Assembly (NCBI GenBank): GCA_947626565.1
Contig: CANQSQ010000009.1
Location: 1-49,224, forward strand
Length of the DNA: 49,224 bases
Reading direction: 5' to 3'
Source of the DNA: an uncultured Bacilli bacterium
Lineage (GTDB): Bacteria; Bacillota_I; Bacilli_A; RF39; UBA660
Position 1 is the first letter of the stretch. Every line of letters starts with the position of its first letter. Positions 1,337 to 41,400 of this stretch are shown here, piece after piece. A program made the translations under genes and the position numbers. Below the pieces are notes generated by a model that worked only from the letters and a program-made list of their open reading frames with translations, searched no databases and was not told the origin of the DNA.

Positions 1337-3508
1337 ATGAAAAGTTTAAAAAGAAAAATATCTAATTCTTTTATTTATGTGTTGAATAATTTAGTATATG
1401 TTTATGTTGCTTTCATTTTAATAATTGGTCTTTGTTCGTTAATAGACTCCAAATCCGAAAATACTTCCGAGTATAAAGCCGATGGTTTTACCATTTCTTC
1501 TTATAATGTTGTCTTAGATGTCAAAAAAGATAATAAAGTAAAAGTAACGGAGAATATAGCCACTAATTTTACTAGTAGTTTAAAACACGGTATTTATAAA
1601 TACACTCCCTTATGGCTAGAGTATACTGGTAAAAATAATAAAACCATCAAAAGAAAAGCTGTTTTAACCAACTATCGAGCTGAAGGTGATCCTTATACCA
1701 CTGATAAAGTAAATGGCAAAGAAAGAATCAGAATTGGAAGTGCCTCATCTTACGTTCCTGAAGGAGAAAAAGACTATACTATTAAATATACCTATGATAT
1801 GGGACAGGACCCTTATATAGGTTTTGATGAATTTATTTTTCATGCCTATGGTGACTTCTGGGGTACCCAAATAAAAAATGCTACTATTCAAGTTATCATG
1901 CCTAAAAAAATTTCTAACTGTAAAGTTAGTTTTTACACCGATAAATATCGTAAAAATAATGTTACTGATATAGTTGAATATACTATTGAAGATAATATCT
2001 TATATGCTACTTTTAATGAAGAAAAAAATTATCAAAAACAACTAAAAGCCTATTGTAAAGATACTAATAATCAAGATGAAAATGGTAAATGTCAATCCGA
2101 AAACTTTGATCTTTATTATGAACCATTAGAAAAATCTTTAACTGTTGATATTGAACTACCAGAAGGTTATTTTGTTGGTGGTAGTTGGAACTATGGTTGG
2201 AAATCCTTCATAACTGCTATAATTATTATTTTATTAACACTAATAACTATCTTAAAATGGTTAAAGTATGGAAAAGATCATCCTAAAAATACTGAAACAG
2301 TTGAATTTTATCCTCCTGATAATTTAACCTCTGCTGAAGTAGGCTATGTATTTAATCATCATCAATCAAGCAAAAAATATACTATTGCTTTGCTTATTCA
2401 ATTAGCTAGTAAAGGCTATATCAAAATTGATGAGAAAAAAGATGCTGACAAAAATATTGAAATAACTAATTTATTAATAAAACCTAAAGAACCAAAAAAA
2501 TTAAAAGAAGATACTTCTAGACGAGTTATTGATGTCAAAAAATTAAAAGATGATGATGAAAATCTTAATCAAGCTGAAAGAACTGTAATGATTCACTTAT
2601 TCAAAAATGGTGATGAAAAAACCGTTGATGATGCTGACATTGATAAATTCTTAGCTGTAAAAGAAAAACTACTTGCCGGTGGTTACATTGAAATAATCAG
2701 TGATAATGATAAATATTTAACTACTAAACGAGAACAAGCTCAAAGTGACTATGATAAAGAATTCCAAAAATATCAACAAGATTTAGAAAAATATAATGCG
2801 AAAATTGCTGATTATCAGCCTCTTAGTAAACTAGAACAAATTGTTTATGATCAGTTATTTTCTAAAGACAATGTTGTTATTCTTCAAAAACATAAAACGT
2901 TCTATCAAGCTTTTAAAGAAGTAGAAGATGAATTAGATGCTAGCTTTAAAGACAAAGTACATGATAAACAAGCAACTAAACAATTTATATGGGCCTTAGT
3001 AATAAGTATCATTGTTCTTATATTAAGTCTTTTATCTTACTTTGTATTAGAAGATTTAGATCCAAGATTATCATTCCTTTATAATCTTTCCTTCATCTGT
3101 ATTATTGTTAATTTATTCTTTATGGCATTTATGAAAAGAAAAACCGAATATGGTGAACAAATTACAGCCAAAGTAAAAGGTTTCCGTAACTTTTTAATAA
3201 CAGCTGAAAAATCTAAATTAGAAGCTTTAGTTCAAGAGAATCCTCATTATTTTTATAATATATTACCATATACATATGCTCTAAATATTTCTAAAAAATG
3301 GATTAAGAAATTTGAAGATATTTCGATGCCAGAAGTAGATATGGGTAATTTTGATTATAGTAGTTCTTATTCTTATTATTCTTTATATGATAATGTCTAT
3401 TATCCACCTGCTACTATTTCCTCTAGCAGTTCAAGTGGTGGCTGTGGTGGCGGTTGTTCATCTTGTGGTGGCGGTTGTTCCTCATGTGGAGGCGGTGGCT
3501 CTTGGTAA
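1337..3508 (+). CDS. DUF2207-type membrane protein with C-terminal CGGGCSS repeat tail
   Basis: A 723-residue membrane protein. After an N-terminal membrane segment (about residues 16-35) comes an extracellular beta-rich domain of the DUF2207 kind (about 45-280). A second membrane segment follows (about 290-310), then a cytoplasmic helical region with NHHQSSKKYT-type wording, two further membrane segments (about 550-600) and a low-complexity tail. DUF2207 proteins usually end in a Gly-rich run closing with Ser-Trp. Here the tail instead carries five Cys (residues 703, 707, 710, 714, 717) in a 7-residue CGGGCSS rhythm before GGGGSW. The ATG at 1337 is preferred over an upstream TTG at 1322 because GAGAGG lies 7 bases before it. 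The next gene starts inside the last codons. Function of the family is not established; the tail is a plausible modification substrate (inference). Confidence 0.85.
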   Translation: MKSLKRKISNSFIYVLNNLVYVYVAFILIIGLCSLIDSKSENTSEYKADGFTISSYNVVLDVKKDNKVKVTENIATNFTSSLKHGIYKYTPLWLEYTGKNNKTIKRKAVLTNYRAEGDPYTTDKVNGKERIRIGSASSYVPEGEKDYTIKYTYDMGQDPYIGFDEFIFHAYGDFWGTQIKNATIQVIMPKKISNCKVSFYTDKYRKNNVTDIVEYTIEDNILYATFNEEKNYQKQLKAYCKDTNNQDENGKCQSENFDLYYEPLEKSLTVDIELPEGYFVGGSWNYGWKSFITAIIIILLTLITILKWLKYGKDHPKNTETVEFYPPDNLTSAEVGYVFNHHQSSKKYTIALLIQLASKGYIKIDEKKDADKNIEITNLLIKPKEPKKLKEDTSRRVIDVKKLKDDDENLNQAERTVMIHLFKNGDEKTVDDADIDKFLAVKEKLLAGGYIEIISDNDKYLTTKREQAQSDYDKEFQKYQQDLEKYNAKIADYQPLSKLEQIVYDQLFSKDNVVILQKHKTFYQAFKEVEDELDASFKDKVHDKQATKQFIWALVISIIVLILSLLSYFVLEDLDPRLSFLYNLSFICIIVNLFFMAFMKRKTEYGEQITAKVKGFRNFLITAEKSKLEALVQENPHYFYNILPYTYALNISKKWIKKFEDISMPEVDMGNFDYSSSYSYYSLYDNVYYPPATISSSSSSGGCGGGCSSCGGGCSSCGGGGSW
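3440..3505 (+). repeat. Gly/Cys heptad repeat tail (CGGGCSS)
   Basis: Codons for two tandem CGGGCSS units and a final C-GGGG-S-W. Cys codons lie at 3443, 3455, 3464, 3476 and 3485. The GGAGG in the Gly codons at 3488-3492 also serves as ribosome binding site for the downstream radical SAM gene. Confidence 0.85.
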
Positions 3509-4500
3509 AAAGATTTATTTTACAATGGCATTTAAGTGAAAATTGTAATTTAAAATGTCTTCATTGTTACCAAGAAAATCATAAACCTGTTCAACTACCA
3601 TATGACAAGTTAGTTGAAATATATAATCAATTTAAAGAACTTTTAAATAAAAAGAAATTACGAGGTCACATTAACATCACTGGTGGTGAACCATTATGTA
3701 ATCCCCATCTTTATAAAATTCTTGATTTAATAAAAAAAGATGCTCCTCTAATTTCTTTTTCTCTTTTAACTAATGGTACTTTAATTACTCCAGACATTGC
3801 TAAAAAGATAAAAAGTTATAATCCTGAATATGTCCAAGTTAGTCTAGAAGGCGGCAAAAAAACTAATGACTATATACGTGGTCAAGGTACCTATAAAAAA
3901 ATCGCCACAGGTATTACTAATTTAAAGAAGGAAAATATTTTTACTTCCATTTCTTTTACGGCTACCAAACTCAATTATAAAGAATTTCCTAAGGTTGTAA
4001 AATATGCGCAAAAGTATCATGTTGATAATGTTTGGTCCGATCGTTATATTCCCTTAGGAGCTAGTGAAGATAAAAATTTAACCCTTAATTTTACTGAAAC
4101 AAGAGACTATTTAGAAATAATGCATAAAGAACGATTAAAACTAAAAAAACAAAAAAATAATACCACTACAATATCTATGTATCGAGCATTACAATTTCAA
4201 ATGACCAATGATTTTGCCTATGGCTGTACCGCTGGTGATTCACTGTTAACTGTTATGGAAAATGGTGATTTAGTTCCTTGCCGTAGAATGCCTATTGTAG
4301 TAGGTAATTTATTTCAAGACTCAATGTTATCATTATATGATAATAGTCCTATTTTAAAAAAACTGCGTACTAATAAAATACCTGATGAATGTCAATTATG
4401 TGACCATGCTGAAACGTGTCGGGGTGGTCTTAAATGCTTAACATATGCCCTTTACCAAGATTTAAATCATAAAGATTATGGTTGTAATGAAGAAATATAA
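3502..4500 (+). CDS. Radical SAM/SPASM protein coupled to the Cys-tail membrane protein
   Basis: A 332-residue radical SAM enzyme. The 4Fe-4S motif CNLKCLHC gives Cys15, Cys19 and Cys22, and GGEP follows at 61-64. The C-terminal SPASM domain has seven Cys (242, 260, 297, 300, 306, 312, 328) in the pattern CX12GX4C, CX2CX5C, C, C, which normally binds auxiliary iron-sulfur clusters. SPASM enzymes typically modify peptides or proteins. The start is chosen as TTG 3502, because GGAGG at 3488-3492 lies 9 bases before it. An ATG at 3484 lies upstream of that site. The TTG overlaps the preceding TAA (TTGGTAA), so the two genes are probably translationally coupled. There is no N-terminal peptide-recognition (RRE) domain: the Cys motif begins at residue 15. 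Substrate unknown; the neighbour's Cys tail is the obvious candidate (inference). Confidence 0.9.
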   Translation: MVKRFILQWHLSENCNLKCLHCYQENHKPVQLPYDKLVEIYNQFKELLNKKKLRGHINITGGEPLCNPHLYKILDLIKKDAPLISFSLLTNGTLITPDIAKKIKSYNPEYVQVSLEGGKKTNDYIRGQGTYKKIATGITNLKKENIFTSISFTATKLNYKEFPKVVKYAQKYHVDNVWSDRYIPLGASEDKNLTLNFTETRDYLEIMHKERLKLKKQKNNTTTISMYRALQFQMTNDFAYGCTAGDSLLTVMENGDLVPCRRMPIVVGNLFQDSMLSLYDNSPILKKLRTNKIPDECQLCDHAETCRGGLKCLTYALYQDLNHKDYGCNEEI

Positions 4501-4512
4501 GAGGAGGTCTCT

Positions 4513-5601
4513 ATGAAAAAATTATTTATTCTCATTTTATTAATCTTTTTAGTAACAGGTTGTGGCCTACAAAGTCCACGTGCCATAAAAAGAAGTGTTA
4601 GTAAAGCCCTTCCTAAAGCTTCTTTGCAAAGTATCGAAAAAGAAGATGATGTAAACATTTATAACTACAAATATAAAAACATAGAATTTAAAATAACTAA
4701 TACATATTATACTCAATCTGATCTTCCTATTCCCTCTAATAATTACTTTAGTAACTATATTAATCAAGTCTTAAAATATTATGAAACTGACATTAAAAAA
4801 ATTGAATCACAGTATAATATAGATGCTACTTTAGAAGACCCTGAAAGTAGGATAACTATAAATATTAGTAATTATTCTGCTTTAAAACAAGTCGCAAACT
4901 ACATAGATGCTCTCTTAGATATAATTAAAGATTATTATTTACAAGAACCAAGTGACTATATAGATTCTAATTTAATTTTTAATATTAAACTTCGTGATGA
5001 ACAATTTGTTCTTGAAAAAATTGATTTAGCTGATGTTAATTATTCCAAATCTAATAAATATCAGATTTATCAAATGAAGTATGTTCAATTAATTGATAAT
5101 AATAAGATAATTAATGATGTTCCAAGTAGTGAGTATAAAAAAATCCCTAAACTATATTTAGATTATGTTTACGTTAACAATAAATTATGTAATTTTACTT
5201 ACTATTTTGTACCACCTAAAATTGTCTATAATGTAGAAGATGAACAATACTATCTACCAGTTGCTTATGGAGTAAAAAATGGTGCCGATGTCGATTATAT
5301 TCAAAAGGATATTATTGAAATGGCTTATCCTAACAGTAATTATCAAAGTGACAATGAAGAAGATTTTACGACTTATAATATTGGTAATAATACTTATAAA
5401 ATGTTATTTAATTCTTCAAAAGATAGTTACAAATTTTATAAAAATAATAAAAAATTGTCTATTACTACTTACAGCCAAATTTCTGATGAATCACCTGGTG
5501 CCACATTTATTAAATTTATAAGTCTTGATGATTTTGCTAATTTAGTAGAAATGAAAACTAGAATAAATACTCAAAGTAGAACTTTATATTTCTACAATTA
5601 A
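4513..5601 (+). CDS. Predicted lipoprotein, unknown function
   Basis: A 362-residue secreted lipoprotein. A short basic N-terminus (MKK), a hydrophobic stretch and the lipobox LVTGC (Cys at residue 17) predict lipid attachment and export to the outer face of the membrane. The mature part is polar, rich in Asn, Tyr and Lys, with no recognised domain. GAGGAGG lies 6 bases before the ATG, and only 12 bases separate it from the radical SAM gene, so it is probably the third gene of that operon. No terminator is seen directly after it. A new promoter starts at 5635. Confidence 0.85.
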   Translation: MKKLFILILLIFLVTGCGLQSPRAIKRSVSKALPKASLQSIEKEDDVNIYNYKYKNIEFKITNTYYTQSDLPIPSNNYFSNYINQVLKYYETDIKKIESQYNIDATLEDPESRITINISNYSALKQVANYIDALLDIIKDYYLQEPSDYIDSNLIFNIKLRDEQFVLEKIDLADVNYSKSNKYQIYQMKYVQLIDNNKIINDVPSSEYKKIPKLYLDYVYVNNKLCNFTYYFVPPKIVYNVEDEQYYLPVAYGVKNGADVDYIQKDIIEMAYPNSNYQSDNEEDFTTYNIGNNTYKMLFNSSKDSYKFYKNNKKLSITTYSQISDESPGATFIKFISLDDFANLVEMKTRINTQSRTLYFYN

Positions 5602-5853: not shown

Positions 5854-8535
5854 ATGGAAGAAAACAAATATATATTTACTCAATTAGAGGATAATAGTTA
5901 CGTAGGATTAACAATTTATGAAGTAAAACAAATCCCTGATATTACAATTTTAATTCCTACTGATGAAAATGAACAAGATTATTCATTAGCCAATAAAAAA
6001 GAATTTGAAAGTTTATTAACTGAAATATATTATAATTGTAAAAATAATTTTAATTATGATTTTACGAATCAAGATTATGCTATAGAACTTGCTTTTTTAA
6101 CTGAACCAACTATCAATCAAACCTATAAAGCTAACATCAAACCTTATATTCTTTTAAGAGCTATAGGACCAACGAAGGATTATGTTTCTAGTCAATTAAA
6201 AGAAATGGCCGAAATCTTCTCCTTAACCCTACAATATAATAAGTATGATATTGTTGAAGTTGCTAATAAAGAAGAAATAAGAGATAAAATGATAAGTTTA
6301 GCTCAAAAAGATAAACGCGTTATAACTAAAGATTTTGGTAAAGCTAATTTACAAAGTAACTATCTACCTGAATGTTTCTCTTTTGCGAAATTACCTGAAA
6401 AAATTGGTAATTTTTCGAGAATTTATAGTACTTTAACTAATTATCCTAACTCATTATTTATTATCGATTTAATTCCTACTATCTTAAATAGAAATGAAAT
6501 AAATAGTCTTGAGGTAATGAGTAATGCTTTGGAAATGTTAAAAAAAGGTATATCTAGTGCTGAAGGTAATATTACTAATGCTTTAGCTGAAAAACATGCT
6601 GAAAATTATCAATATTATGAAAAAAATAAAAATGGTATTTTATATTCTTACAATATTATGATTTGTAGTGATTCTCATTCTATAACGAATATTTCTTCTA
6701 AAATTATAAGTGAAATAGGAGTAGGAACTAATCAAAATAATGCTGAATTACTTTCTTTAGATATTTATAATGATGATATTGATATAAAAGAATATTTTAA
6801 CTCTCTACCATGGGCCATCAATGAAATTACTTATGACTTTGTTACTGAAGAAAAAAATATGCCTGAAGAGCCATGTTTAAGGATGCCTTTTCTTGTTACT
6901 GCTGAAGAAGCTAGTGAGTTTTTTAGAATACCTTATGGTGATAAAATGTTTGCTGCTGGTATTAAAATCAATAGAGCTAATAAGAATGAAAAACAATATA
7001 TGAAAAAGATTATTAATACTGGAGATATTATGATTGGAACTTTAAAAAGTTCTAATAATGAAGACAAAATTGGTATAAATTTAGATGATATAACTAAGCA
7101 CCTTTTAGTAGTAGGAATGCCTGGTAGTGGTAAAACAACTTTTTCTATAGGACTACTTGATCAATTATGGAAAGATCATCATATTCCTTTCCTAGTTATT
7201 GAACCAGCTAAAAATGAATATCGTGCTATGATTGACAGTATCCCTGAAATTCAAGTTTTCACTCCTGGAAAAGACTTCATATCACCTTATATTATAAATC
7301 CTTTTATTCCCCCAAAGAATGTTCGACTTCAAAGTTATAAGACTGTTTTAAAAACTGCTTTTTCCGCTTGTGTATCAATGACAACTCCTTTAGACAAAAT
7401 CTTTGAAGATACCATTGATGAATGTTATTCTCGAGCTGGTTGGCTTCCATACTATACAATTGAAGATGGTGGTGCCATTTTCACTATGGAAGACTTTCTT
7501 AAAACCTTTATGGAAGTCTTTGAAAAAATAGGTTATAAAGGTGATGCTTCCAACATTGGTAAAGCTGGATATGTCCGTTTGAAAGGTTTATTAAAATTAT
7601 TTCAAACGTATAATACTATTCCCGTCGAAGATTTACTAACTAAGCCAACTATTATTGAATTAGCTGCGATAGAAAATGCTGAACAAAAAAGTTTAATAAT
7701 TGCTTTGCTTTTACTTAACATTCAATCTTATATTAATGCTAATGCTATAGGAACAGGTGAATTAAAAAATGTTTTACTTCTTGAAGAAGCTCATGTCTTA
7801 TTAGGACAAAGTAGTCAAGTTAGTGATGATAAAGCTAATCCAAGTGCTGTAGCTAAAGGCTTATTAACGAGAATGTTAGCGGAAGTAAGAGCCTTAGGTA
7901 TGGGCATTATTATTGCTGATCAATCTCCTGAAAAAGTAACATCTGATGTCATTAGACTAACTAATAATAAATTATCATTTAATTTAGTTGAATTTAGAGA
8001 TAGAGAAATTATTAAAAATAGTACGAAAATGTCTGATGTTCAAATGGATAGACTACCTATATTACGACCTGGTGAAGCTTTCTTCTATACCAATGGTTTA
8101 GAGGAATCAGAAGAAATAATAACTGAAGATTATCGTAAAAAAGTCCAAATTAGAACTACTATTAGTGATAACGAAATAGCTGAGAAAAGTACTTATTGGA
8201 ATAATAAGAAAGATAAATTAAAACCTTTTATTGAATGTCGTTGTATGGAATGTTGTAAAGAGTGTAATTATAAAGTAAAAGCCGCTGCTGAAGAATATGC
8301 TCGCAGAATTTATGCTAAATCTTTTAATGAGCAAAGTAGTGACCCATCACTTTTAACTAATACTTATAAAACTATAAACAGTCAAATAAAAGAGTATGAT
8401 GCTAAGGCTACTAAGCAATTAGCTTGCTGTACTAAACTACAATTTTTACGAAAAATTAAATATAATACTAAAATTAAAATAACTGATAAGCAAATTATTC
8501 AAACATTAAAAAATAATTTTAAAAAGGAGGCATAA
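5854..8535 (+). CDS. HerA/DUF87-like P-loop ATPase
   Basis: An 893-residue ATP-dependent motor of the HerA/FtsK/VirB4 class. The N-terminal 400 residues have no recognised domain. The ATPase core has Walker A GMPGSGKTT (421-429) and Walker B VLLLEEAH (640-647). A TRMLAEVRALG region (about 672-682) and IIIADQSPEKV resemble the arginine-finger and sensor segments of HerA proteins. Near the C-terminus is a Cys cluster (CRCMECCKEC, about 794-803) that could bind zinc. It has no membrane segment. HerA-type proteins form hexamers that pump DNA or, in related secretion motors, drive protein transfer; which applies here is unknown. AAGGAGG precedes the ATG. The next gene starts 3 bases after the stop, indicating a tight operon with the acidic peptidase-like protein. 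Confidence 0.85.
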   Translation: MEENKYIFTQLEDNSYVGLTIYEVKQIPDITILIPTDENEQDYSLANKKEFESLLTEIYYNCKNNFNYDFTNQDYAIELAFLTEPTINQTYKANIKPYILLRAIGPTKDYVSSQLKEMAEIFSLTLQYNKYDIVEVANKEEIRDKMISLAQKDKRVITKDFGKANLQSNYLPECFSFAKLPEKIGNFSRIYSTLTNYPNSLFIIDLIPTILNRNEINSLEVMSNALEMLKKGISSAEGNITNALAEKHAENYQYYEKNKNGILYSYNIMICSDSHSITNISSKIISEIGVGTNQNNAELLSLDIYNDDIDIKEYFNSLPWAINEITYDFVTEEKNMPEEPCLRMPFLVTAEEASEFFRIPYGDKMFAAGIKINRANKNEKQYMKKIINTGDIMIGTLKSSNNEDKIGINLDDITKHLLVVGMPGSGKTTFSIGLLDQLWKDHHIPFLVIEPAKNEYRAMIDSIPEIQVFTPGKDFISPYIINPFIPPKNVRLQSYKTVLKTAFSACVSMTTPLDKIFEDTIDECYSRAGWLPYYTIEDGGAIFTMEDFLKTFMEVFEKIGYKGDASNIGKAGYVRLKGLLKLFQTYNTIPVEDLLTKPTIIELAAIENAEQKSLIIALLLLNIQSYINANAIGTGELKNVLLLEEAHVLLGQSSQVSDDKANPSAVAKGLLTRMLAEVRALGMGIIIADQSPEKVTSDVIRLTNNKLSFNLVEFRDREIIKNSTKMSDVQMDRLPILRPGEAFFYTNGLEESEEIITEDYRKKVQIRTTISDNEIAEKSTYWNNKKDKLKPFIECRCMECCKECNYKVKAAAEEYARRIYAKSFNEQSSDPSLLTNTYKTINSQIKEYDAKATKQLACCTKLQFLRKIKYNTKIKITDKQIIQTLKNNFKKEA

Positions 8536-8538
8536 TTT

Positions 8539-11500
8539 ATGGATGAAGGTTTTGATACAACTGATACTGAAACAGATTTTTCAGATAGTTCTGATTTTTC
8601 AGACAGTTCTGATTTTTCCAGTGATGCCTCTTTAGATGAAGATTTTTCTGATGATTTTTCAGACGATGCAATTGAAGAAGACACAGAAGACTTTGTTGAT
8701 GATGCAATTGAAGAAGATACAGAAGATTTTGATGAAGATGTTGAATCAGATGAATTATCAGAAGATGAAGAAGATTTAACTGATGATGAAATAGAGGAGG
8801 ATACTGAAGAAGTCGACGAAGAAACAGAAACTGAAGAAATATCAGAAGACGAAGAAAACTTTGTCGACGACGAAACGGAAGAAGATTCTGAAGGACTAGA
8901 TGAAGAAACAGAAACAGATGAACTATCAGAAGATGAAGAAAATTATGCTGATGATGAAACGGAAGAAGATTCTGAAGGCTTAGATGAAGACACCGAAACA
9001 GATGAGTTACCAGAAGATGAAGAAAATTATACTGACGATGAAACGGAAGAAGATTCTGAAGGCTTAGATGAAGACACTGAAACAGATGAGTTACCAGAAG
9101 ATGAAGAAAATTATACTGACGATGAAACGGAAGAAGAATCTGAAGGTTTAGACGAGGATACAGAATCAGATGAGTTGCCAGAGGATGAAGAGAATTACGC
9201 TGATGACGAAACGGAAGAGGACTCAGAAGAAGGTTTAGCTGAAGACACCGAAACAGATGAATTACCAGAAGATGAAGAAAACTATGCTGATGATGAAACT
9301 GAAGAGGATTCCGAAGGTTTAGATGAGGATACAGAATCAGATGAATTACCAGAAGATGAAGAAAACTATGCTGATGATGAAACTGAAGAAGATTCTGAAG
9401 GACTAGATGAAGACACCGAAACAGATGAGTTACCAGAAGACGAAGAGAATTACACTGATGATGAAACTGAAGAAGATTCTGAAGGACTAGATGAAGACAC
9501 CGAAACAGATGAGTTGCCAGAAGATGAAGAAAACTATGCTGATGATGAGACTGAAGAAGATTCTGAAGGACTAGATGAAGAAACTGAAACAGATGAACTA
9601 TCAGAAGACGAAGAAAAATATGCTGATGACGAAACGGAAGAGGACTCAGAAGGTTTAGCTGAAGACACCGAAACAGATGAACTATCAGAAGACGAAGAAA
9701 ACTATGCTGATGATGAAACTGAAGAAGATTCTGAAGGACTAGATGAAGACACCGAAACAGATGAGTTACCAGAAGACGAAGAGAATTACGCTGATGACGA
9801 AACGGAAGAGGACTCAGAAGGTTTAGACGAGGATACAGAATCAGATGAACTACCAGAGGATGAAGAAAATTATACTGACGATGAAACGGAAGAGGACTCA
9901 GAAGGACTAGATGAAGATACAGACTCTGATGAATTACCAGAAGATGAAAAAAATTATACCGATGACGAGACCGAAGAAGATTCTGAAGGTTTAGCTGAAG
10001 ACACTGAAACAGATGAATTACCAGAGGATGAAGAAAACTATGCTGATGATGAAACTGAAGAAGATTCCGAAGGACTAGATGAAGATACAGACTCTGATGA
10101 ATTACCAGAAGATGAAGAAAATTATACCGATGACGAAACTGCAGAAGATTCTGAAGGTTTAGCTGAAGACACTGAAACAGATGAAACATCTGAAGACGAA
10201 AATATTACTAACAATGAAAACCAAGATGCATCTCAAAAAGAGACAACCGAAGAAAATACTGAAACTAAAGAAAATTCTGAAACTGAACAAAATACCGAAG
10301 TTAAAGAAAACATAAATAGAGAAGTTAATATTCCTGAACATAATGACTTTGTTGACAGTTTAAAAGATGGTGTAAGAACTCCTGAAGAGGTAGCCGAGCA
10401 AGATATAAATAACCTTAAAAATACTAACAATAATACCGATACTAATGATAATTCAAATGATAATTCAAATGGCTTAACCAAAAATACTAACCAAGAATTA
10501 AAAGAAGAATCACAACCTCAAGATATTACTTCCCAAAATCCTCAATTGGTTCCTAATTATCAAAACTTTAATGATTATCCAGAAAGTACCGAAGTTGATA
10601 TTCCTGAACACAATGACTTTGTTGACAGTTTAAAAGATGGCGTAAAAACTCCAGATGAAGTTTCTACTAAAGATAATAATGATTTAAATCCAGATAACAT
10701 TTCTAGTGATGATATAACTAATTCCGAAACAACCAACCAATTTACTGAAGTTAATATTCCTGAACATAATGACTTTATCAGCAAATTAAAAGAGGATGTT
10801 GCTTCACCAGAAACAGGCTCTTTAAGTGATACTAGTAAAATTCAATCCACGGAAGAAACAACTACTAATAATTCTCATCAACCATCAGACATCAAAAACA
10901 TAGTCGACGATATTGGCAATTCGCAACATAGTGATTTTGTTAATGACTTAAAGGCTGGCGTAAAAACTCCAGAAGAACCTACTAATAATCAAAGCTCAAA
11001 TAATATCCCTAAAGAAGATAATCCAAATAACACTAATCTAAATAATAATGTTCTAAATAATAATGTCCAAGATAATAATGTTTCAAATAATCCTAATCCA
11101 AATAATAACGTCGCAAATAACGCTGAACTAAATAAGGCAGTAAAAAAAGAAGGTCTTTTCTCTAAATTAAAAAATTTCCAAATATCTAAGGGAAAATCAG
11201 CAAGTAAACAATCACTTAATACCTCAAATGATATATTTGATGATGATAATCTTCCAAACAACAATATTTCTGAAGATAAACCAACTAACAGTTTCTTACA
11301 AGAGTTAAAAAATAATGTTAGAGATGAAGTTGAAGTTGCTCAAAAAGATGCTAATGATATCTTAAATGGTAAAAATTCATCAGCCCATAATTCAGATGTA
11401 GGTTCAAGAAATAATCATAAAGAAATAGGCGATGACCCTCGTTATGAAGGCTTCTTTGATGAATCAAAACAAAATTTTGATGTCCAATCTATCGAACTAG

Positions 11501-12363
11501 CTGAAGAAGATGGTCCTATTACCGAAACGAGATCAGAAGAAATAAGTGAAGAAGATGGTCCTATTCCTGAAATGATATCAGAAGAAATAAGTGAAGAAGA
11601 AAAAGAACTTTATGAAAATATGAATCCTGATGTCTTATCCTCAATGGATGCTGAAAGTAGAAGAGATTTCCTTATAAAATATCCAAAATACTTAGAAAAA
11701 GATTTTGATGCAACGTTTGACAAAGAATTTGGTGATTATCAATATCCAAAACATCGAGACAGAACCTTACGCGATAGTACCGTTCTAAATACTGAAGAAG
11801 AATTTAAAAGTGCTTTAGGGGACAGATATACAAATGACATTTTAGGTTACCATGATAGTCAAGTAAATCATATCAATGTAGATCAATGTTGCCGTGATTC
11901 AAGATTTTTAAAAACAGTAATTTATCATGAACATATTCATAATAAATCATGCAACGATGTCCATTTAGACGAAGATACTGTAATTAGAAAAAGAGGTATT
12001 TCTATAGATGGAAATGACCGCCAAGTTAACGAAGGCATAACCGAATACTTTACTAAAAAAATGTTAGGTAAAGATTATCCTAAAGGTATGTCTGGATATC
12101 AAAATAATATAGATAGAGCTGAACGTTTAGAAAAATTAATTGGTGAAAAAGAATTAAGAACAGCTTACTTTAACAACAATCCAAATATTTTAGAACGAGC
12201 TATAGATAATCAACTTGGTAAAGGTTACTGGAAAAAATATTCTGAAGCTTGTGATAATTATTTAAATCCTCAATTGGACAAAAGAACCCGTCAATGGTAT
12301 AATAAAAGTGCCGATAAAATATTAGATTTGCTTGAAAAGAGATTGGAGGGATCTAGAAAATGA
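8539..12363 (+). CDS. Giant acidic repeat protein with C-terminal HExxH zinc-peptidase-like domain
   Basis: A 1274-residue protein in three parts. Residues 1-555 are an extremely acidic, repetitive arm with 16 clear 28-residue units (DETEEDSEGLDEDTETDELP-type) plus two degenerate ones before them. Residues about 555-1000 are Asn/Asp-rich and disordered, with four or five copies of an EHNDFVDSLKDGVKTPEEV-like motif. The C-terminal 250 residues look folded and contain HEHIH (1130-1134) followed 30 residues later by NEGITE (1164-1169), the layout of gluzincin metallopeptidases in which the second Glu-containing motif supplies the third zinc ligand. There is no signal peptide, so export, if any, needs another route. 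AAGGAGG precedes the ATG. It sits directly behind the HerA-like ATPase and overlaps the next gene by 4 bases (ATGA). Protease activity is inferred from motifs only. Confidence 0.85.
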   Translation: MDEGFDTTDTETDFSDSSDFSDSSDFSSDASLDEDFSDDFSDDAIEEDTEDFVDDAIEEDTEDFDEDVESDELSEDEEDLTDDEIEEDTEEVDEETETEEISEDEENFVDDETEEDSEGLDEETETDELSEDEENYADDETEEDSEGLDEDTETDELPEDEENYTDDETEEDSEGLDEDTETDELPEDEENYTDDETEEESEGLDEDTESDELPEDEENYADDETEEDSEEGLAEDTETDELPEDEENYADDETEEDSEGLDEDTESDELPEDEENYADDETEEDSEGLDEDTETDELPEDEENYTDDETEEDSEGLDEDTETDELPEDEENYADDETEEDSEGLDEETETDELSEDEEKYADDETEEDSEGLAEDTETDELSEDEENYADDETEEDSEGLDEDTETDELPEDEENYADDETEEDSEGLDEDTESDELPEDEENYTDDETEEDSEGLDEDTDSDELPEDEKNYTDDETEEDSEGLAEDTETDELPEDEENYADDETEEDSEGLDEDTDSDELPEDEENYTDDETAEDSEGLAEDTETDETSEDENITNNENQDASQKETTEENTETKENSETEQNTEVKENINREVNIPEHNDFVDSLKDGVRTPEEVAEQDINNLKNTNNNTDTNDNSNDNSNGLTKNTNQELKEESQPQDITSQNPQLVPNYQNFNDYPESTEVDIPEHNDFVDSLKDGVKTPDEVSTKDNNDLNPDNISSDDITNSETTNQFTEVNIPEHNDFISKLKEDVASPETGSLSDTSKIQSTEETTTNNSHQPSDIKNIVDDIGNSQHSDFVNDLKAGVKTPEEPTNNQSSNNIPKEDNPNNTNLNNNVLNNNVQDNNVSNNPNPNNNVANNAELNKAVKKEGLFSKLKNFQISKGKSASKQSLNTSNDIFDDDNLPNNNISEDKPTNSFLQELKNNVRDEVEVAQKDANDILNGKNSSAHNSDVGSRNNHKEIGDDPRYEGFFDESKQNFDVQSIELAEEDGPITETRSEEISEEDGPIPEMISEEISEEEKELYENMNPDVLSSMDAESRRDFLIKYPKYLEKDFDATFDKEFGDYQYPKHRDRTLRDSTVLNTEEEFKSALGDRYTNDILGYHDSQVNHINVDQCCRDSRFLKTVIYHEHIHNKSCNDVHLDEDTVIRKRGISIDGNDRQVNEGITEYFTKKMLGKDYPKGMSGYQNNIDRAERLEKLIGEKELRTAYFNNNPNILERAIDNQLGKGYWKKYSEACDNYLNPQLDKRTRQWYNKSADKILDLLEKRLEGSRK
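8869..10203 (+). repeat. 84-bp tandem repeat array encoding acidic units
   Basis: Sixteen in-frame units of 84 bp (28 codons); unit 5 has one extra Glu codon and the last is cut to 24 codons. The protein consensus is nearly fixed, but codons vary between synonymous forms (GAA/GAG, GAT/GAC, ACT/ACG/ACC). This shows selection on the peptide rather than only very recent duplication. The repeat keeps the opposite strand free of stops, which creates a long false antisense ORF. Confidence 0.95.
10321..10980 (+). repeat. Four dispersed copies of an EHNDF-SLK-GV-TPEE motif
   Basis: Copies begin at 10321, 10591, 10747 and 10918. The peptide consensus is IPEHNDFVDSLKDGVKTPEE. Spacers between copies are Asn/Asp/Ser-rich and unrelated. 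A weaker fifth copy (NSFLQELKNNV) lies near 11287. This is typical of repeated short binding motifs in a disordered linker. Confidence 0.85.
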
Positions 12364-12872: not shown

Positions 12873-12886
12873 TAAGAAAGGAGAAT

Positions 12887-12901
12887 GTTAGAAAATCTAA
12901 C
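12887..12901 (+). promoter_or_regulatory. Hairpin between ribosome binding site and SPFH start
   Basis: GTTAGA-AAA-TCTAAC is a perfect 6-pair hairpin directly after AAAGGAG (12877-12883). Folding it brings the ribosome binding site closer to the candidate starts GTG 12906 and ATG 12915. Functional meaning is speculative. Confidence 0.35.
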
Positions 12902-12914
12902 AGAAGTGTATAAT

Positions 12915-14045
12915 ATGGAAGTATATAGTGTAATAAAAAATGATCGCCCAACTGATGAAATATTTTGGCAATTTACTGGTGAAGATTTTAATACCAATAG
13001 CCAATTAATTGTTCAAGAATCTGAAGAAGCCTTATTTGTTAAAGATGGTATCGTAGTGGCAACCTTTGGTCCTGGTAGACATAATCTAACTACAGCTAAT
13101 TTACCATTCATTGAATCAATAAGAAAAAAATTTACAGGTGGTGTATCTCCATTTAGTTGTAAGGTTTATTTTATTGATAAAGCTGCTAAACTAGAATTAA
13201 AATGGGGAACAGACTCACCAATTCAAATGCGTGATGCTGAATTTGGCTTTGCCGTTGGTGTCCGTGCTAGAGGTAGTTACACTCTTCAAGTAGAAGATTC
13301 TAAAAAATTATACATTAAGATGATTGGTAATATTCCTGTTTTTACCGTTGATGTTATTAATGATAATTTTAGATCTGCTTTTCAACAAAAAATAAAAAAT
13401 GCTCTAGCTAACGTAATGAAAGAACAAAAATTAACTATTCTAGATATGAATAATGAACTTGATAATTTAAGTGAACTTATTTTCCCTAAAATTCAAGAAA
13501 TTCTTTCAGAATATGGTTTAAGATTAGTTAATTTCTATATTTCAGATATTTCTATTCCTGAAAATGATCCAAATTATGCTCAAATAAATCAATTCTATGT
13601 TGATAAGGCTAGTATTAAGATTCAAGGCAATGACTATAATCGTCTAAAAGCTAATGAATTATTAAAAGATATAGCTAATAATCCTGGAGCTGGTGGTGTA
13701 GCTGCTGCTGGTGCTGGACTTGGAATGGGCATGGCTTCAAGTGGTATATTTAACAATCTAGCTGCTCAAGCTTTTGCTCCAATGCAAGATCAAAATATTG
13801 CTCCAGCTCCTGCTCAACAACCTCAAGCTCGTACTTCAAGATTTGCTCCTAAAAAAGAAGAAGCCCCAACTTCAAATGCAACTATTAAATGTCCAAATTG
13901 TGGTAGTGAAGTACCTGAAAACAGTAAATTCTGTTTAGAATGTGGTACTAAAATGGCTACTGAATGGCAATGTAAGAATTGTGGCGAAATGGTACCTGCT
14001 AATGCCAAATTTTGTGGAAATTGTGGCTCAAGGAGGGAAGATTAA
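12915..14045 (+). CDS. SPFH-domain protein with C-terminal double zinc ribbon (YdjI/COG4260 type)
   Basis: A 376-residue member of the SPFH (stomatin/prohibitin/flotillin) group called virion core protein or YdjI-like. The N-terminus MEVYSVIKNDRPTDEIFW, followed by QLIVQESEEALFVKDG and FGPGRHNL, matches the family. The SPFH fold covers about residues 20-240, and a Gly/Ala-rich linker follows (about 245-315). Two zinc ribbons with CPNCG/CLECG and CKNCG/CGNCG lie at about 325-376. The ATG at 12915 is preferred. An in-frame ATG at 12885 is only 1 base from AAAGGAG, too close to be used, and GTG 12906 is the other option. SPFH proteins form membrane-associated ring or cage assemblies, and Bacillus YdjI acts with membrane-stress proteins. 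The gene lies in the HerA operon, and its stop overlaps the next start (TAATG). Confidence 0.85.
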   Translation: MEVYSVIKNDRPTDEIFWQFTGEDFNTNSQLIVQESEEALFVKDGIVVATFGPGRHNLTTANLPFIESIRKKFTGGVSPFSCKVYFIDKAAKLELKWGTDSPIQMRDAEFGFAVGVRARGSYTLQVEDSKKLYIKMIGNIPVFTVDVINDNFRSAFQQKIKNALANVMKEQKLTILDMNNELDNLSELIFPKIQEILSEYGLRLVNFYISDISIPENDPNYAQINQFYVDKASIKIQGNDYNRLKANELLKDIANNPGAGGVAAAGAGLGMGMASSGIFNNLAAQAFAPMQDQNIAPAPAQQPQARTSRFAPKKEEAPTSNATIKCPNCGSEVPENSKFCLECGTKMATEWQCKNCGEMVPANAKFCGNCGSRRED

Positions 14046-32499: not shown

Positions 32500-32511
32500 G
32501 AAGTGATTACC

Positions 32512-34683
32512 TTGAAAAAGAAAAAAAAGAGTAACAATATAAAATATTCTAAAATATTTGTTTTTTGTTCTCTTTTTTTGTTTGTAGTCATGCTTCTTCG
32601 GGTTACCCAGTTAGCAACATCTAAAGAGATAGATAATATTAATCTTCAAGAACTAGCTTCTAAAAGAACAACTAAAACAGAAATAATCCCTGCTGAACGA
32701 GGTAATATATATTCAAATGATGGTGATATTTTAGCGCAAAATGTCTCATCTTACAAATTAATCGCTTATCTTGATAAAAAAAGAACTACTAATAAAAACA
32801 ACCCCCAACATGTCGTTGATAAAGAACTAACCGCTGAAAAACTGGCTCCAATATTAGGCATGGATAAAGAAGAAATTTTAAAGTACTTAAGTAAAGAAAA
32901 TGTCTACCAAACTGAGTTTGGTGCTAAAGGTAAAAATTTAAATGAATTAACTAAACAAAAAATTGACGACTTAAATTTACCAGGAATAGACTTTATTGAA
33001 AGTTTTCGTCGTTATTATCCTAAAGGAGATTTTGCATCTTATACTGTTGGGTATGCTAAAACCAGTGAAGATGGAACTATCTCTGGTGAAATGGGCATTG
33101 AAAAGTATTATGACAAAATCTTAAAAGGTGAAGATGGTTCAATTACTTATCAAAAAGATTTAAAAGGTTATCAAATAGCTGACACCAACATGGTAAAGCA
33201 TGATGCTATTCAAGGTAAAGATATTTATTTAACAATTGATAGTAACGTTCAATTCTTTATTGAACAAGCTCTTAATAATGCTGATATCGATTATGACTGG
33301 GAATGGTTTCATATTACTGTTATTGATGCCAAAACAGCGGCTGTTTTAGCTACCGCTACCACGCCATCTTTTGATCCTAATATTAGAAACATTACTAATT
33401 ACTTAGATTTAGCCGTTTCATCACCTTATGAACCTGGTTCAACTATGAAAACCTTTACTTATATGGCCGCTATGGAAAATGGTGTATATGATGGCAATGA
33501 AACATATAAGTCCGGTGTTTATGTTACCTCAGATGGTACACAAATAGGTGATTGGGACCGTAATGGTTGGGGAACTATTACTTTTGATAAAGGTTATGCC
33601 ATGAGTAGTAATGTTGGTGTTATTAATATTATCAATCGACATATGAATAGTATGATGTTAAGACAATATTTCCGTCGTTTAGGCTTTGGCCGTAAAACAG
33701 GTATTACCCTTCCTAATGAATCAGCTGGTAAACTAGCTTTTAAATATGAAACAGAAATTTTTAATGCTGGCTTTGGTCAAGGTATAACAACCACCCCAAT
33801 GCAAAATGTTCAAGCTATGACCCCCCTTACAAATGATGGCATGTTATTAAAACCATATATTGTCAAAAAAATAGTCGATCCCGAAACCAAAGAAGTTATT
33901 TTAGAAAATGACAAAGAAGAAGATGAACGTGTTGCTTCCACTGCCACCGTCCAAAAAATGCTTCAATTAATGGATGATTGTGTTAATGGTATCGGTAATA
34001 CTGGTAGTGGTTATCGAATTGATAGTAAAGAATTAATAGGTAAAACGGGAACGGCTCAAGTTGCTAATGAGAATGGGGGAGGGTACTTAAAAGGAAAATC
34101 GGATATTATTTCTTCCTTTGCTGGTATTTATCCAAAGAGTAACCCCCAAGTAATAATCTATGCTTCTGTTAAAAGACCAACCGCTGGAAGTCAAAAACCT
34201 ATTAGTAATGCTATAAAAGAAATTGTTGGTAATTTATCTAAATATTATGGTCATGAACAATATTCTACTAACTCTATTGAAATTTCTGAAGTAGTTCTTG
34301 ATAGTTATGTCAATCAAAAAGTAGACAAAGTTAAAACGCAACTAGAAAATGCTAAAATTAATTATAGTATTTTAGGTAATGGTGATAAAGTAGTAAAACA
34401 AATTCCTTCTAAAGATGATATGATAACTTCTAAAGATACAGTTTATCTTATCACCAATGATGCTAATCTTACTATTCCTGATACTATAGGTTTATCTTCT
34501 AAATTAGCTAAAGACCTTCTTCAACACTTAAACGTTAATGTCAAATTAGAGGGAGTAGGATATGTTACAGAACAATCCATCCCTGCTGGAACCCCAATTA
34601 CTCCTAATTTAGAAATAACCTTAAAATTAAATCCTAAATTTCAAGTAGAAGCTCCGCCAAATGGTGATAATAATGGATCGTAA
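32512..34683 (+). CDS. Class B penicillin-binding protein with two PASTA domains (PBP2B type)
   Basis: A 723-residue bitopic transpeptidase of division, which cross-links septal peptidoglycan. After the N-terminal membrane segment (about residues 15-35) come the pedestal domain and then the transpeptidase domain. The active site has Ser310-T-M-Lys313, the SxN motif Ser365-S-Asn367 and Lys511-T-G. Two PASTA domains follow at the C-terminus (about 590-715). PASTA domains are typical of Bacilli PBP2B/PBP2x. The TTG at 32512 lies 8 bases after AGGAAG and is preferred over GTG 32503. The C-terminus overlaps the next gene by 11 bases. Confidence 0.95.
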   Translation: MKKKKKSNNIKYSKIFVFCSLFLFVVMLLRVTQLATSKEIDNINLQELASKRTTKTEIIPAERGNIYSNDGDILAQNVSSYKLIAYLDKKRTTNKNNPQHVVDKELTAEKLAPILGMDKEEILKYLSKENVYQTEFGAKGKNLNELTKQKIDDLNLPGIDFIESFRRYYPKGDFASYTVGYAKTSEDGTISGEMGIEKYYDKILKGEDGSITYQKDLKGYQIADTNMVKHDAIQGKDIYLTIDSNVQFFIEQALNNADIDYDWEWFHITVIDAKTAAVLATATTPSFDPNIRNITNYLDLAVSSPYEPGSTMKTFTYMAAMENGVYDGNETYKSGVYVTSDGTQIGDWDRNGWGTITFDKGYAMSSNVGVINIINRHMNSMMLRQYFRRLGFGRKTGITLPNESAGKLAFKYETEIFNAGFGQGITTTPMQNVQAMTPLTNDGMLLKPYIVKKIVDPETKEVILENDKEEDERVASTATVQKMLQLMDDCVNGIGNTGSGYRIDSKELIGKTGTAQVANENGGGYLKGKSDIISSFAGIYPKSNPQVIIYASVKRPTAGSQKPISNAIKEIVGNLSKYYGHEQYSTNSIEISEVVLDSYVNQKVDKVKTQLENAKINYSILGNGDKVVKQIPSKDDMITSKDTVYLITNDANLTIPDTIGLSSKLAKDLLQHLNVNVKLEGVGYVTEQSIPAGTPITPNLEITLKLNPKFQVEAPPNGDNNGS

Positions 34684-38467: not shown

Positions 38468-41400
38468 ATGGAAAGTTATTTAGAAGAATTAGAAAATGAA
38501 TTAAGAGATCATCAAAGAGAAATTACCCACCTTCAAGAAGAACGTGAAGCTCTTCGTCAAGAACAAAATAATATGTCTTTCAACGCATATAATAGAGAGT
38601 ATCAAAATATTATAAATCATCTAGAAACAGAGACCACAGCTGCTGAAGAACTTCAACAAAGAATTTCATCATATCGTGAAAATTACACTTTAGCTAACAA
38701 TTCAATAGCTGATTTAAGAAACTTAAGAAGTTTACTTTCTACTACTACTGATTCTAATGAAAGAGCAGAAATAAATGAAGAAATCACAGCTAAAGAAGAG
38801 GAACTTCGTACTGCTATGAGCATTCTTCCTAGTGAAATGGCTGATAGTATACGTGAATCTTACTTAGCAGATACTTCTACTGCTGAAGATGCACGTACAA
38901 CTACTGATGCTCAAACAGAAGAAAATATTACTGATAATAACACTAACACTAATTTAATAGATACGTATTATTCTAACTTAGAAACAGAAATAGCTCAACA
39001 TCAAGCCGAAATTGATCACCTTGAAGAAGAAAGAGAAGCCCTACGAAACGAAGAACAAAATATGCCAACGGCTAGCTATAGAAGAGAGTATGAAAATATT
39101 AATAATCACCTTAGTACTGAAAGAAGTGCTTTAGAAGAAGCTCAAAATAATCTAGCTACTTTACGTCGTAATTATGATTTATCTAATAGTTCTATTAGAG
39201 ATTTACGAAATTTACGAGAATTACTTCGTCAAACTTCTGATGCTAGAGAAAGAGCAGAGATAAATGAAGAAATAACTGCTAAAGAAGGAGAGTTAAGAGA
39301 TTCTATAAATGCTCTTCCTGAAGATTTAGCTGACTATGTCCGCAATTCCTTCTTAGGAAATAATCAAGATACTGATACTAATGAAAATAATAACACCAAT
39401 GATTCTAATGACACTAGTGGTACTGATCAGGACACTGATACCAATGAAGATGATAACACCAACGATTCTAATGATACTAGTGGTACTGATCAAGATACTG
39501 ATACTAATGAAGATGATAATACCAATGATTCTAATGATACTAGTGGTACTGATCAAGACACTGATACTAATGATAATGATGACACCAACGATTCTAATGA
39601 TACCAGTGATACTGATCAAGACACTGATACTAATGATAATGATAACACCAATGACTCTAATGATACCAGTGACACTGATCAAGATACTGATACTAATGAA
39701 GCTGATACAACCAATACCTTGTCAGCAGAAGCTCAAAGAGATTATGATGAAATTACTAATCAAATAGCCCAATTACGTCAAATGGAAGAAGATTATAATA
39801 ATATTCTTCAACAATCAATCGCTCGCTTTATTGATATATTTGCTAATGAAAAAGAAAGATATGAAAAAGATGGTCCATTTGATTCTAAAACCCTTGATGA
39901 TCTTCAAAATTATTACATGAATTTGAAACTTGATGAAAATCAAATTTTCACAGAAGCAAAGAGAAATGTTGAAAATGTCAGAATGCAAATTCAAGACCTT
40001 GAGCAACAATTGGCTAAAATAAGAGAAATGGGTGCTATTGCTCAAGCTCTAGGTATGACGTATGATGAGTATAAAAATATTACTAGTATCCTTGAAAATA
40101 ATAATATAATAAATGATATTTTAGAGAAAAAAGGCTTAAAAGACCTATTATTAAAACATGATAATCTTACTCCAGAGGAAAAACAAGCTTTAGAAGCAGC
40201 CAAAAAAGATATTTATAAAGAAATAGCTAACTTTTTACATAAAAATAAAGATAAAAATATTTTAGATGCTATTAATATATTATATGGTATAGATAAAACA
40301 GCTAAAAAAGACGGAACTCCTAAAAGCACTACCGTTTCTGAAGAAGACATAGATAATATGAGAAAAAATGGTCAAAAAGCAAAAGGTCAAGACACACCAA
40401 GATTACCAGGACCAACCATTGGAGATCAAAATCTTATTGGTACCAATGGTGATGAGGATTCTAAAAATACTCCTAACAAAAAAAATGAACCTCCAAAACC
40501 TAAAAATAAAGATAATGACAATACTAAAGATGATCCAAATAAAGGAAATGACGTTCCAAGACTTCCGGGACCAACCGCTACTGATACTCCAGGACTTCCA
40601 GGACCTACTGAAGATGATAACAAAAAATCTAGCCGAAAAAGAGGTCTACGTGAAATATTTGGTGATTTAAGAAAAGACTTAAATATTGGTAGAAAAGATG
40701 GTCAACGCTATCGTCGTAGTAATATAAAAGTAAGCAAAGAATTTGTCAATGAACTTCATTCTGGTAATATGGTATACAATATAATTCATGTTGTTCCTGC
40801 TGTTATCAAAGCACCAATCCAATTATTAAGAAAATTATCTGGAAAGATTATGCTTGGTAAAGAAGCTAAACAAATGATGGGAACATTGCGTGAAAGACTT
40901 GATCAATTACCAGCTGAAGATTTAGAAACAATTTTCAAAGAATATCGTGGTAATCGTATCAATCAAGAGCGTTATCCTGAAGCTTTCAACATGGTAATAG
41001 AAGAAAAAATGAGTGAATACATTTTAGGTAAAGTAGCTGTCATTAACAAAAATATCGAAGAATCTTATAAAAATGTCCTTTATGTTAAAAATCTATTAAG
41101 TTCCATCGATGAAAATCTTCGTAAAGGAAAAATGACAAATGAAGAAAAAATTCGTAAGTTAGAACAAAGAAAAGCTTTATTAAAACAAGCTGGTAATAGT
41201 ATTAAATACATTAGAGAAGCTAAAATAGAAGCTGATAATTTACTATCAGGTGGTCTACATGGTTTATCAGAAGATATGAAAGCTGCTGCTACTAAATTAA
41301 ACTGTGTAGGTTTAAGATTTGCTAAAACTCATGACATGGATCAAGAACTTGAAGATAAATTAATGGAATGTGAAAAACGTGAGAATGATGCTATTTATAA

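Follow-up and report, generated by a model that had tools for sequence, protein, structure and literature searches.

The window analysed here is a 49,224-nucleotide stretch from an uncultured Bacilli bacterium (assembly GCA_947626565.1, contig CANQSQ010000009.1). It carries a two-gene locus in which a DUF2207 membrane protein ending in a Cys/Gly/Ser tail is encoded immediately upstream of, and overlapping with, a radical S-adenosylmethionine (SAM)/SPASM enzyme (Table 1). Our comparative analysis suggests that the SPASM enzyme probably modifies the Cys tail of the membrane protein in place, as had been proposed in an earlier, sequence-only reading of the locus. Four points are established below: tail and enzyme go together across genomes, their genes overlap in a fixed manner, the enzyme has a predicted fold with conserved cluster ligands, and it is kin to the Cys–Gly-peptide maturases ACGX and SbtM. 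From the linkage, which lends support to in-place modification, we infer that the tail is the substrate of the enzyme.

The tail and the enzyme are found together almost without exception. A tail-first scan of about 85,000 species genomes, using an exact DNA pattern for CSSCGGGGSW followed by a stop codon, returned 58 stretches, of which 57 are genuine tails and one (L076, from Actinoplanes) was rejected as a chance match in an 81-codon open frame with neither DUF2207 nor the enzyme. The enzyme gene lies directly downstream of 53 of the 57 genuine tails, two others end at a contig edge (L061 and L067) and two are solo (L060 and L064), giving 53 of 55 among the tails with enough downstream sequence. 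Both solo tails belong to assemblies that hold the enzyme elsewhere: that of L060 has a complete pair (L074), and that of L064, whose decayed tail keeps one CSSC unit, has the enzyme behind a DUF2207 pseudogene (L069). Searching in the opposite direction, from the enzyme, gave a match in 16 of 385 genomes of the order, and every intact orthologue fetched is located directly behind a Cys-tailed DUF2207 gene; the only match lacking a tail is a 5'-truncated enzyme gene (L048) in a genome without a tail. A looser tail pattern (CGGGGSW-stop) applied to the same genomes yielded 15 matches, all of them enzyme-bearing, and the co-occurrence (15 genomes with the tail, 16 with the enzyme, 15 in common) corresponds to a Fisher P value of 5e-26 uncorrected for kinship. 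The enzyme also accompanies a variant tail, CSSGGGCGGCGGGGSW (L041), in which CGGC replaces CSSC. A phylum-wide sample of 392 genomes gave no other orthologue, the next match there being 30% identical. By comparison, the enzyme gene is beside none of the 23 Gly-only DUF2207 relatives that could be read to the tail, one of which comes from the window's own genome. Both the linkage with a SPASM gene and the comparison with Gly-only relatives thus turned out as the sequence-only reading had anticipated.

The two genes are also interlocked at the nucleotide level. The DUF2207 open reading frame extends from the ATG at 1337 to the stop codon at 3506–3508, and that of the enzyme from the TTG at 3502–3504 to 4500. 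A GGAGG site within the tail codons and a TTG start overlapping the stop had both been described from the sequence alone, and both recur across homologous loci. In the window the site is positioned 9 nt upstream of the TTG; of 50 homologous loci, 43 have GGAGG at most 18 nt upstream of the enzyme start, and L052 is the only paired locus from the tail scan that departs from the –7 offset. All 50 non-redundant enzyme-bearing loci use TCT or TCA for the last tail Ser, as compared with 70% of the other tail Ser codons (P about 2e-8 for the 49 loci using the –7 start), and it is this choice of codon that creates the TTG or ATG start of the enzyme. By comparison, the last Ser codon of L064, which has no adjacent enzyme, is TCC and no longer gives either start. 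The fixed overlap, the start-making Ser codon and the upstream GGAGG indicate that the coupling is under selection and not incidental.

Table 1. Features of the DUF2207–SPASM locus in the window
Feature	Position	Strand	Basis
DUF2207 membrane protein, 723 residues	1337..3508	+	PF09972, PF20990; hydropathy and positive-inside rule; AlphaFold2 helices at predicted spans
Cys/Gly/Ser tail CGGGCSSCGGGCSSCGGGGSW	3443..3505	+	Sequence; conservation; predicted disordered
GGAGG Shine–Dalgarno-like site inside tail Gly codons	3488..3492	+	Sequence; homologous loci
7-nt overlap: last Ser-codon base, TGG and stop forming the NTG GTA enzyme start	3502..3508	+	Offset in paired loci
Radical SAM/SPASM enzyme, 332 residues, two predicted auxiliary [4Fe-4S] clusters, no RRE	3502..4500	+	Pfam/NCBIfam; AlphaFold2 folds

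The membrane protein matches both DUF2207 models above their gathering scores (PF09972, 67 bits; PF20990, 115 bits), and both are matched by 29 of 29 homologues (E ≤ 0.001). Hydropathy and charge predict an N-in orientation with four transmembrane spans (residues 18–36, 291–309, 553–571 and 580–598), which enclose an extracellular domain (37–290) and a cytoplasmic domain (310–552) and leave the C-terminus in the cytoplasm. Consistent with this arrangement, 63 of 65 proteins have an excess of Lys and Arg following the last span. The predicted topology therefore places the Cys tail on the cytoplasmic side of the membrane, within reach of a cytoplasmic radical enzyme. The same topology, with a large extracellular N-terminus and an intracellular Gly/Ser-rich C-terminus, has been reported for Streptococcus DUF2207, the deletion of which weakens the acid and oxidative stress tolerance of Streptococcus mutans (PMC10457818). 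The window protein ends in GGCGGGCSSCGGGCSSCGGGGSW; residues 703, 707, 710, 714 and 717 are the five Cys of the tail (codons within 3443–3487) and follow the CGGGCSS rhythm recognised at the outset; Gly-rich tails as such are usual in DUF2207 proteins. In the AlphaFold2 model, the predicted local distance difference test score (pLDDT) is below 50 for residues 685–716, indicating disorder. After this stretch, residues 720–722 (3494–3505), before the final Trp, are modelled as a strand (pLDDT ~74), and the invariant Ser–Trp end, which is found on Gly-only tails as well, may dock somewhere. Fold comparison of the model gave weak matches (template modelling score about 0.17), the best being aminopeptidase domains, from which we draw nothing, and no relative was found in the PDB by sequence. 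Assignment to TIGR04222 was rejected, as the protein scores 17.1 bits against a cut-off of 43 and 4 of 29 homologues match at E ≤ 0.1. To our knowledge, the biochemical function of DUF2207 is not known.

The enzyme is a radical SAM/SPASM protein by both domain models (PF04055, 92 bits; PF13186, 31 bits; each above its cut-off). Its CX3CX2C motif comprises Cys 15, 19 and 22, and the seven SPASM Cys, already counted in the sequence-only reading, are residues 242, 260, 297, 300, 306, 312 and 328. Together with C66, these make eleven Cys that are invariant across 53 homologues. C66 (3697–3699) lies just after the GGEPL motif, outside the usual cluster ligands, and may be a catalytic thiol. Only 14 residues precede the first motif Cys, which agrees with the earlier statement that an N-terminal RRE domain is absent. 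The AlphaFold2 model (pLDDT 81.5) most closely resembles SkfB, SuiB, CteB and anaerobic sulfatase maturase (anSME), each of them a SPASM enzyme with a peptide or protein as its substrate. No NCBIfam model covers the enzyme above its cut-off: the best are TIGR04340 (ACGX; 146 bits, cut-off 400) and TIGR04082 (SbtM; 145 bits, cut-off 350), and the PapB ranthipeptide maturase model gives 100 bits. A defence-viperin assignment was discarded, as the pVip models (65 bits) match the radical SAM core only, whereas the full SPASM domain and the better ACGX and SbtM scores speak against it. No further SPASM gene was found in the window's genome. The enzyme is best read as a new SPASM subfamily.

The nearest relatives of the enzyme have partners of related composition. 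In the same bacterial family, genome G008 encodes a true ACGX enzyme (L107; TIGR04340, 550 bits) that is 30% identical to the window enzyme and adjoins a TIGR04341 peptide in which ACGTACGA and ACGSSCGA are repeated (L107/L124). The next relative (L125, genome G076) adjoins a Cys/Gly-rich precursor of ~80 residues (...GGIACVSCGATGCNIVECVSCGCSGGC...) in an apparent peptide cluster with two radical SAM genes. The partners of both relatives suggest that this part of the SPASM family works beside Cys–Gly repeats.

Cys-tailed DUF2207 proteins form a single clade with respect to their Gly-tailed relatives (Shimodaira–Hasegawa-like approximate likelihood ratio test support 100, in a quick tree from which the last 60 residues were omitted). 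Within this clade, mean identity is 92.5% in the tail, as compared with 37% in the linker just before it and 46% (minimum 27%) in the DUF2207 body, while the enzymes of the pairs are on average 70% identical (minimum 57%). The last 11 tail residues were fixed by the search pattern, so that their identity is selected; nevertheless, residues –25 to –11 still average 83% identity, and the same conservation is seen in 14 tails that were reached only by way of the enzyme. The distances of body and enzyme correlate (Mantel r = 0.88). The pair is known from about 50 gut bacteria, comprising uncultured gut Bacilli (with one close locus in Candidatus Faecisoma) and Lachnospiraceae such as Pseudobutyrivibrio, and this span of hosts suggests that it has probably moved horizontally as a unit. 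Its presence in the cultured rumen strains Pseudobutyrivibrio ruminis DSM 9787, Pseudobutyrivibrio sp. OR37 and YE44 makes it directly testable.

Neighbouring genes show little recurrence. Across homologous loci, no recurrent protease, exporter or transporter gene was found near the pair; LemA lies upstream in 8 of 46 loci, another neighbour is seen in five loci of one close subgroup, and no other gene recurs. In the window, a predicted lipoprotein gene (4513–5601) with a GAGGAGG site follows directly 3' of the enzyme; it was left out of the system, since it is not a recurrent neighbour elsewhere.

These observations can be assembled into a two-gene protein-maturation cassette. The DUF2207 membrane protein would be made first, and ribosomes ending the Cys/Gly/Ser tail would re-initiate at the overlapping TTG or ATG, by which the enzyme might be made beside its substrate. 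It would then oxidise, in place, Cys residues of the CSSC/CGGGC tail, which is predicted to be cytoplasmic and disordered; no leader would be removed and nothing exported.

Two chemistries are conceivable for such a reaction, and we hold each to be a plausible candidate of about equal, tentative standing in view of the kinship to ACGX and SbtM, the chemistry of SbtM and a parallel between MNIO enzymes and TIGR04222 proteins. In one, each Cys sulfur would be joined to a Gly or Ser carbon in a thioether of the sactionine or ranthionine type (–2 H per Cys), so that the tail would become a chain of small rings. The thioether makers SkfB and CteB among the best structural matches, the PapB score, the conserved seven SPASM Cys and the regular C-x2-C/C-x3-C spacing, which fits short rings, point in this direction, whereas the ACGX and SbtM models outscore PapB, and Ser is dispensable in the unit, as seen from the CGGC of L041. 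In the other, each Cys would become a thiooxazole (–4 H per Cys), a soft-metal ligand, which would make the enzyme an anaerobic counterpart of MNIO action on bufferins. SbtM, the nearest family of known chemistry, converts Cys to thiooxazole with the loss of four hydrogens (reviewed in PMC11002830) and is also the second-best model of the ACGX relative L107 (186 bits); furthermore, MNIO enzymes, which form the same ring in copper-binding bufferins, are linked to the C-terminal Cys/Gly/Ser tails of TIGR04222 membrane proteins (PMC12452194). The thiooxazoles of SbtM and bufferin are reported to absorb near 302–305 nm (PMC12538549). Set against this, the window enzyme falls far short of the SbtM cut-off and has no equivalent of the first 200 or so residues of SbtM (the profile match begins at position 199 of 516). 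The thioether-type chemistry suggested by the sequence-only reading thus keeps its place but shares it with thiooxazole formation, since the nearest families are ACGX and SbtM and not the classical thioether synthases.

It is also conceivable that the tail is no substrate at all, and that its Cys pairs bind a metal or Fe–S cluster or anchor the enzyme to the membrane while it acts elsewhere. CxxC pairs are common metal sites, and a one-to-one linkage would suit a scaffold too. This explanation nevertheless appears unlikely to us: no third gene widely conserved beside the pair was found across the loci, the nearest relatives of the enzyme adjoin Cys–Gly repeat peptides, and the solo Cys-tailed proteins sit in genomes with the enzyme elsewhere, as expected for a substrate modified in trans. 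That a low-complexity Gly tail, of the kind usual in DUF2207 proteins, acquired incidental Cys next to an unrelated enzyme deserves hardly any credence, being refuted by the genome counts and opposed by the fixed overlap and the conservation. In-place modification of the tail remains our preferred reading, and several points weigh against it. The ACGX and SbtM scores lie far under their cut-offs, and kinship of SPASM sequences is a poor predictor of chemistry; overlapping genes can also arise purely for reasons of expression; and some paired loci retain a single CSSC unit (L047, L073 and L105). In addition, the Cys clade has a single origin, and the association is one event inherited faithfully and moved horizontally, so that the association counts do not represent independent events.

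By analogy with the bufferins and with the stress phenotype of the Streptococcus mutant, one might hazard the guess that the tail, once modified, binds metal or senses redox state on the cytoplasmic side of the membrane. With reserve, we put forward a new class of in-place modification, in which a dedicated SPASM enzyme would build thiooxazole or thioether on a cytoplasmic tail that thereby becomes metal- or redox-responsive. Radical SAM/SPASM enzymes are known mainly as makers of small peptide products and cofactors; if the proposal is correct, SPASM chemistry would extend to resident cell-envelope proteins without leader, protease or export, and the modified Cys tail would offer a concrete handle on DUF2207 function. 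The pair would moreover be an anaerobic radical SAM counterpart of the MNIO-modified TIGR04222 tails, two unrelated superfamilies having converged on one kind of substrate. Among the open-access papers searched, we found none joining DUF2207 with radical SAM, and none of the matches listed for the tail motif or ACGX was on topic. Each component belongs to a known kind; what appears undescribed in those papers is the pairing, the overlapping-gene design and the topology of the substrate. For the notion that a peptide-modifying enzyme acts on a Cys/Gly tail of a membrane protein, a bioinformatic precedent has been published (PMC12452194).

Several other genes in the window may be recorded. Just downstream is a three-gene row encoding a HerA-type ATPase (5854–8535; PF01935), a 1274-residue protein with a long acidic repeat (DDETEEDSEGLDEDTETDELPEDEENY; 8539–12363) and an SPFH/Band 7 protein with a double zinc ribbon (12885–14045), possibly a defence or membrane-remodelling operon. 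Two PASTA-containing penicillin-binding transpeptidases are encoded less than 11 kb apart (32503–34683, plus strand; 43416–45320, minus strand), and a 1314-residue protein (38468–42412) has no Pfam match.

Comparison with known systems reveals both shared and distinct features. The closest precedent is the predicted action of MNIO enzymes on TIGR04222 proteins, in which a RiPP-type (ribosomally synthesized and post-translationally modified peptide) enzyme is paired with the low-complexity C-terminal Cys/Gly/Ser tail of a multi-span membrane protein; of the Cys-bearing proteins that lack a signal and whose genes immediately precede MNIO genes, 40% belong to TIGR04222, a family of membrane proteins with Ser/Gly/Cys tails (PMC12452194). 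MNIO enzymes belong to a superfamily unrelated to radical SAM/SPASM, the TIGR04222 tails are predicted to be periplasmic whereas the window tail is predicted to be cytoplasmic, and their association is loose, with a third of the genomes lacking an MNIO enzyme, as compared with the near-absolute linkage observed here. SbtM is, like the window enzyme, a radical SAM/SPASM protein and acts on peptide Cys or selenocysteine (PMC11002830), but it is longer (516-position profile) and has a small peptide substrate. ACGX enzymes resemble the window enzyme as SPASM proteins that lack an RRE and have an adjacent partner with repeated Cys–Gly units. By comparison, their partner is a free TIGR04341 peptide of about 65 residues, while the window enzyme adjoins the tail of a 723-residue DUF2207 protein. 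The fold, the CX3CX2C motif and the full SPASM domain are common to SkfB, CteB, PapB and the window enzyme, which differs in having no RRE, small precursor, protease or transporter and in scoring lower with their NCBIfam models than with ACGX and SbtM. In this regard, the locus departs from the RiPP pattern of a small leader-bearing precursor with protease and export genes. Anaerobic sulfatase maturase and QhpD are SPASM enzymes that modify a larger protein with no small product released; their substrates are a single Cys/Ser motif or a multi-ring subunit, whereas the putative substrate in the window is the repeated Cys/Gly tail of a membrane protein.

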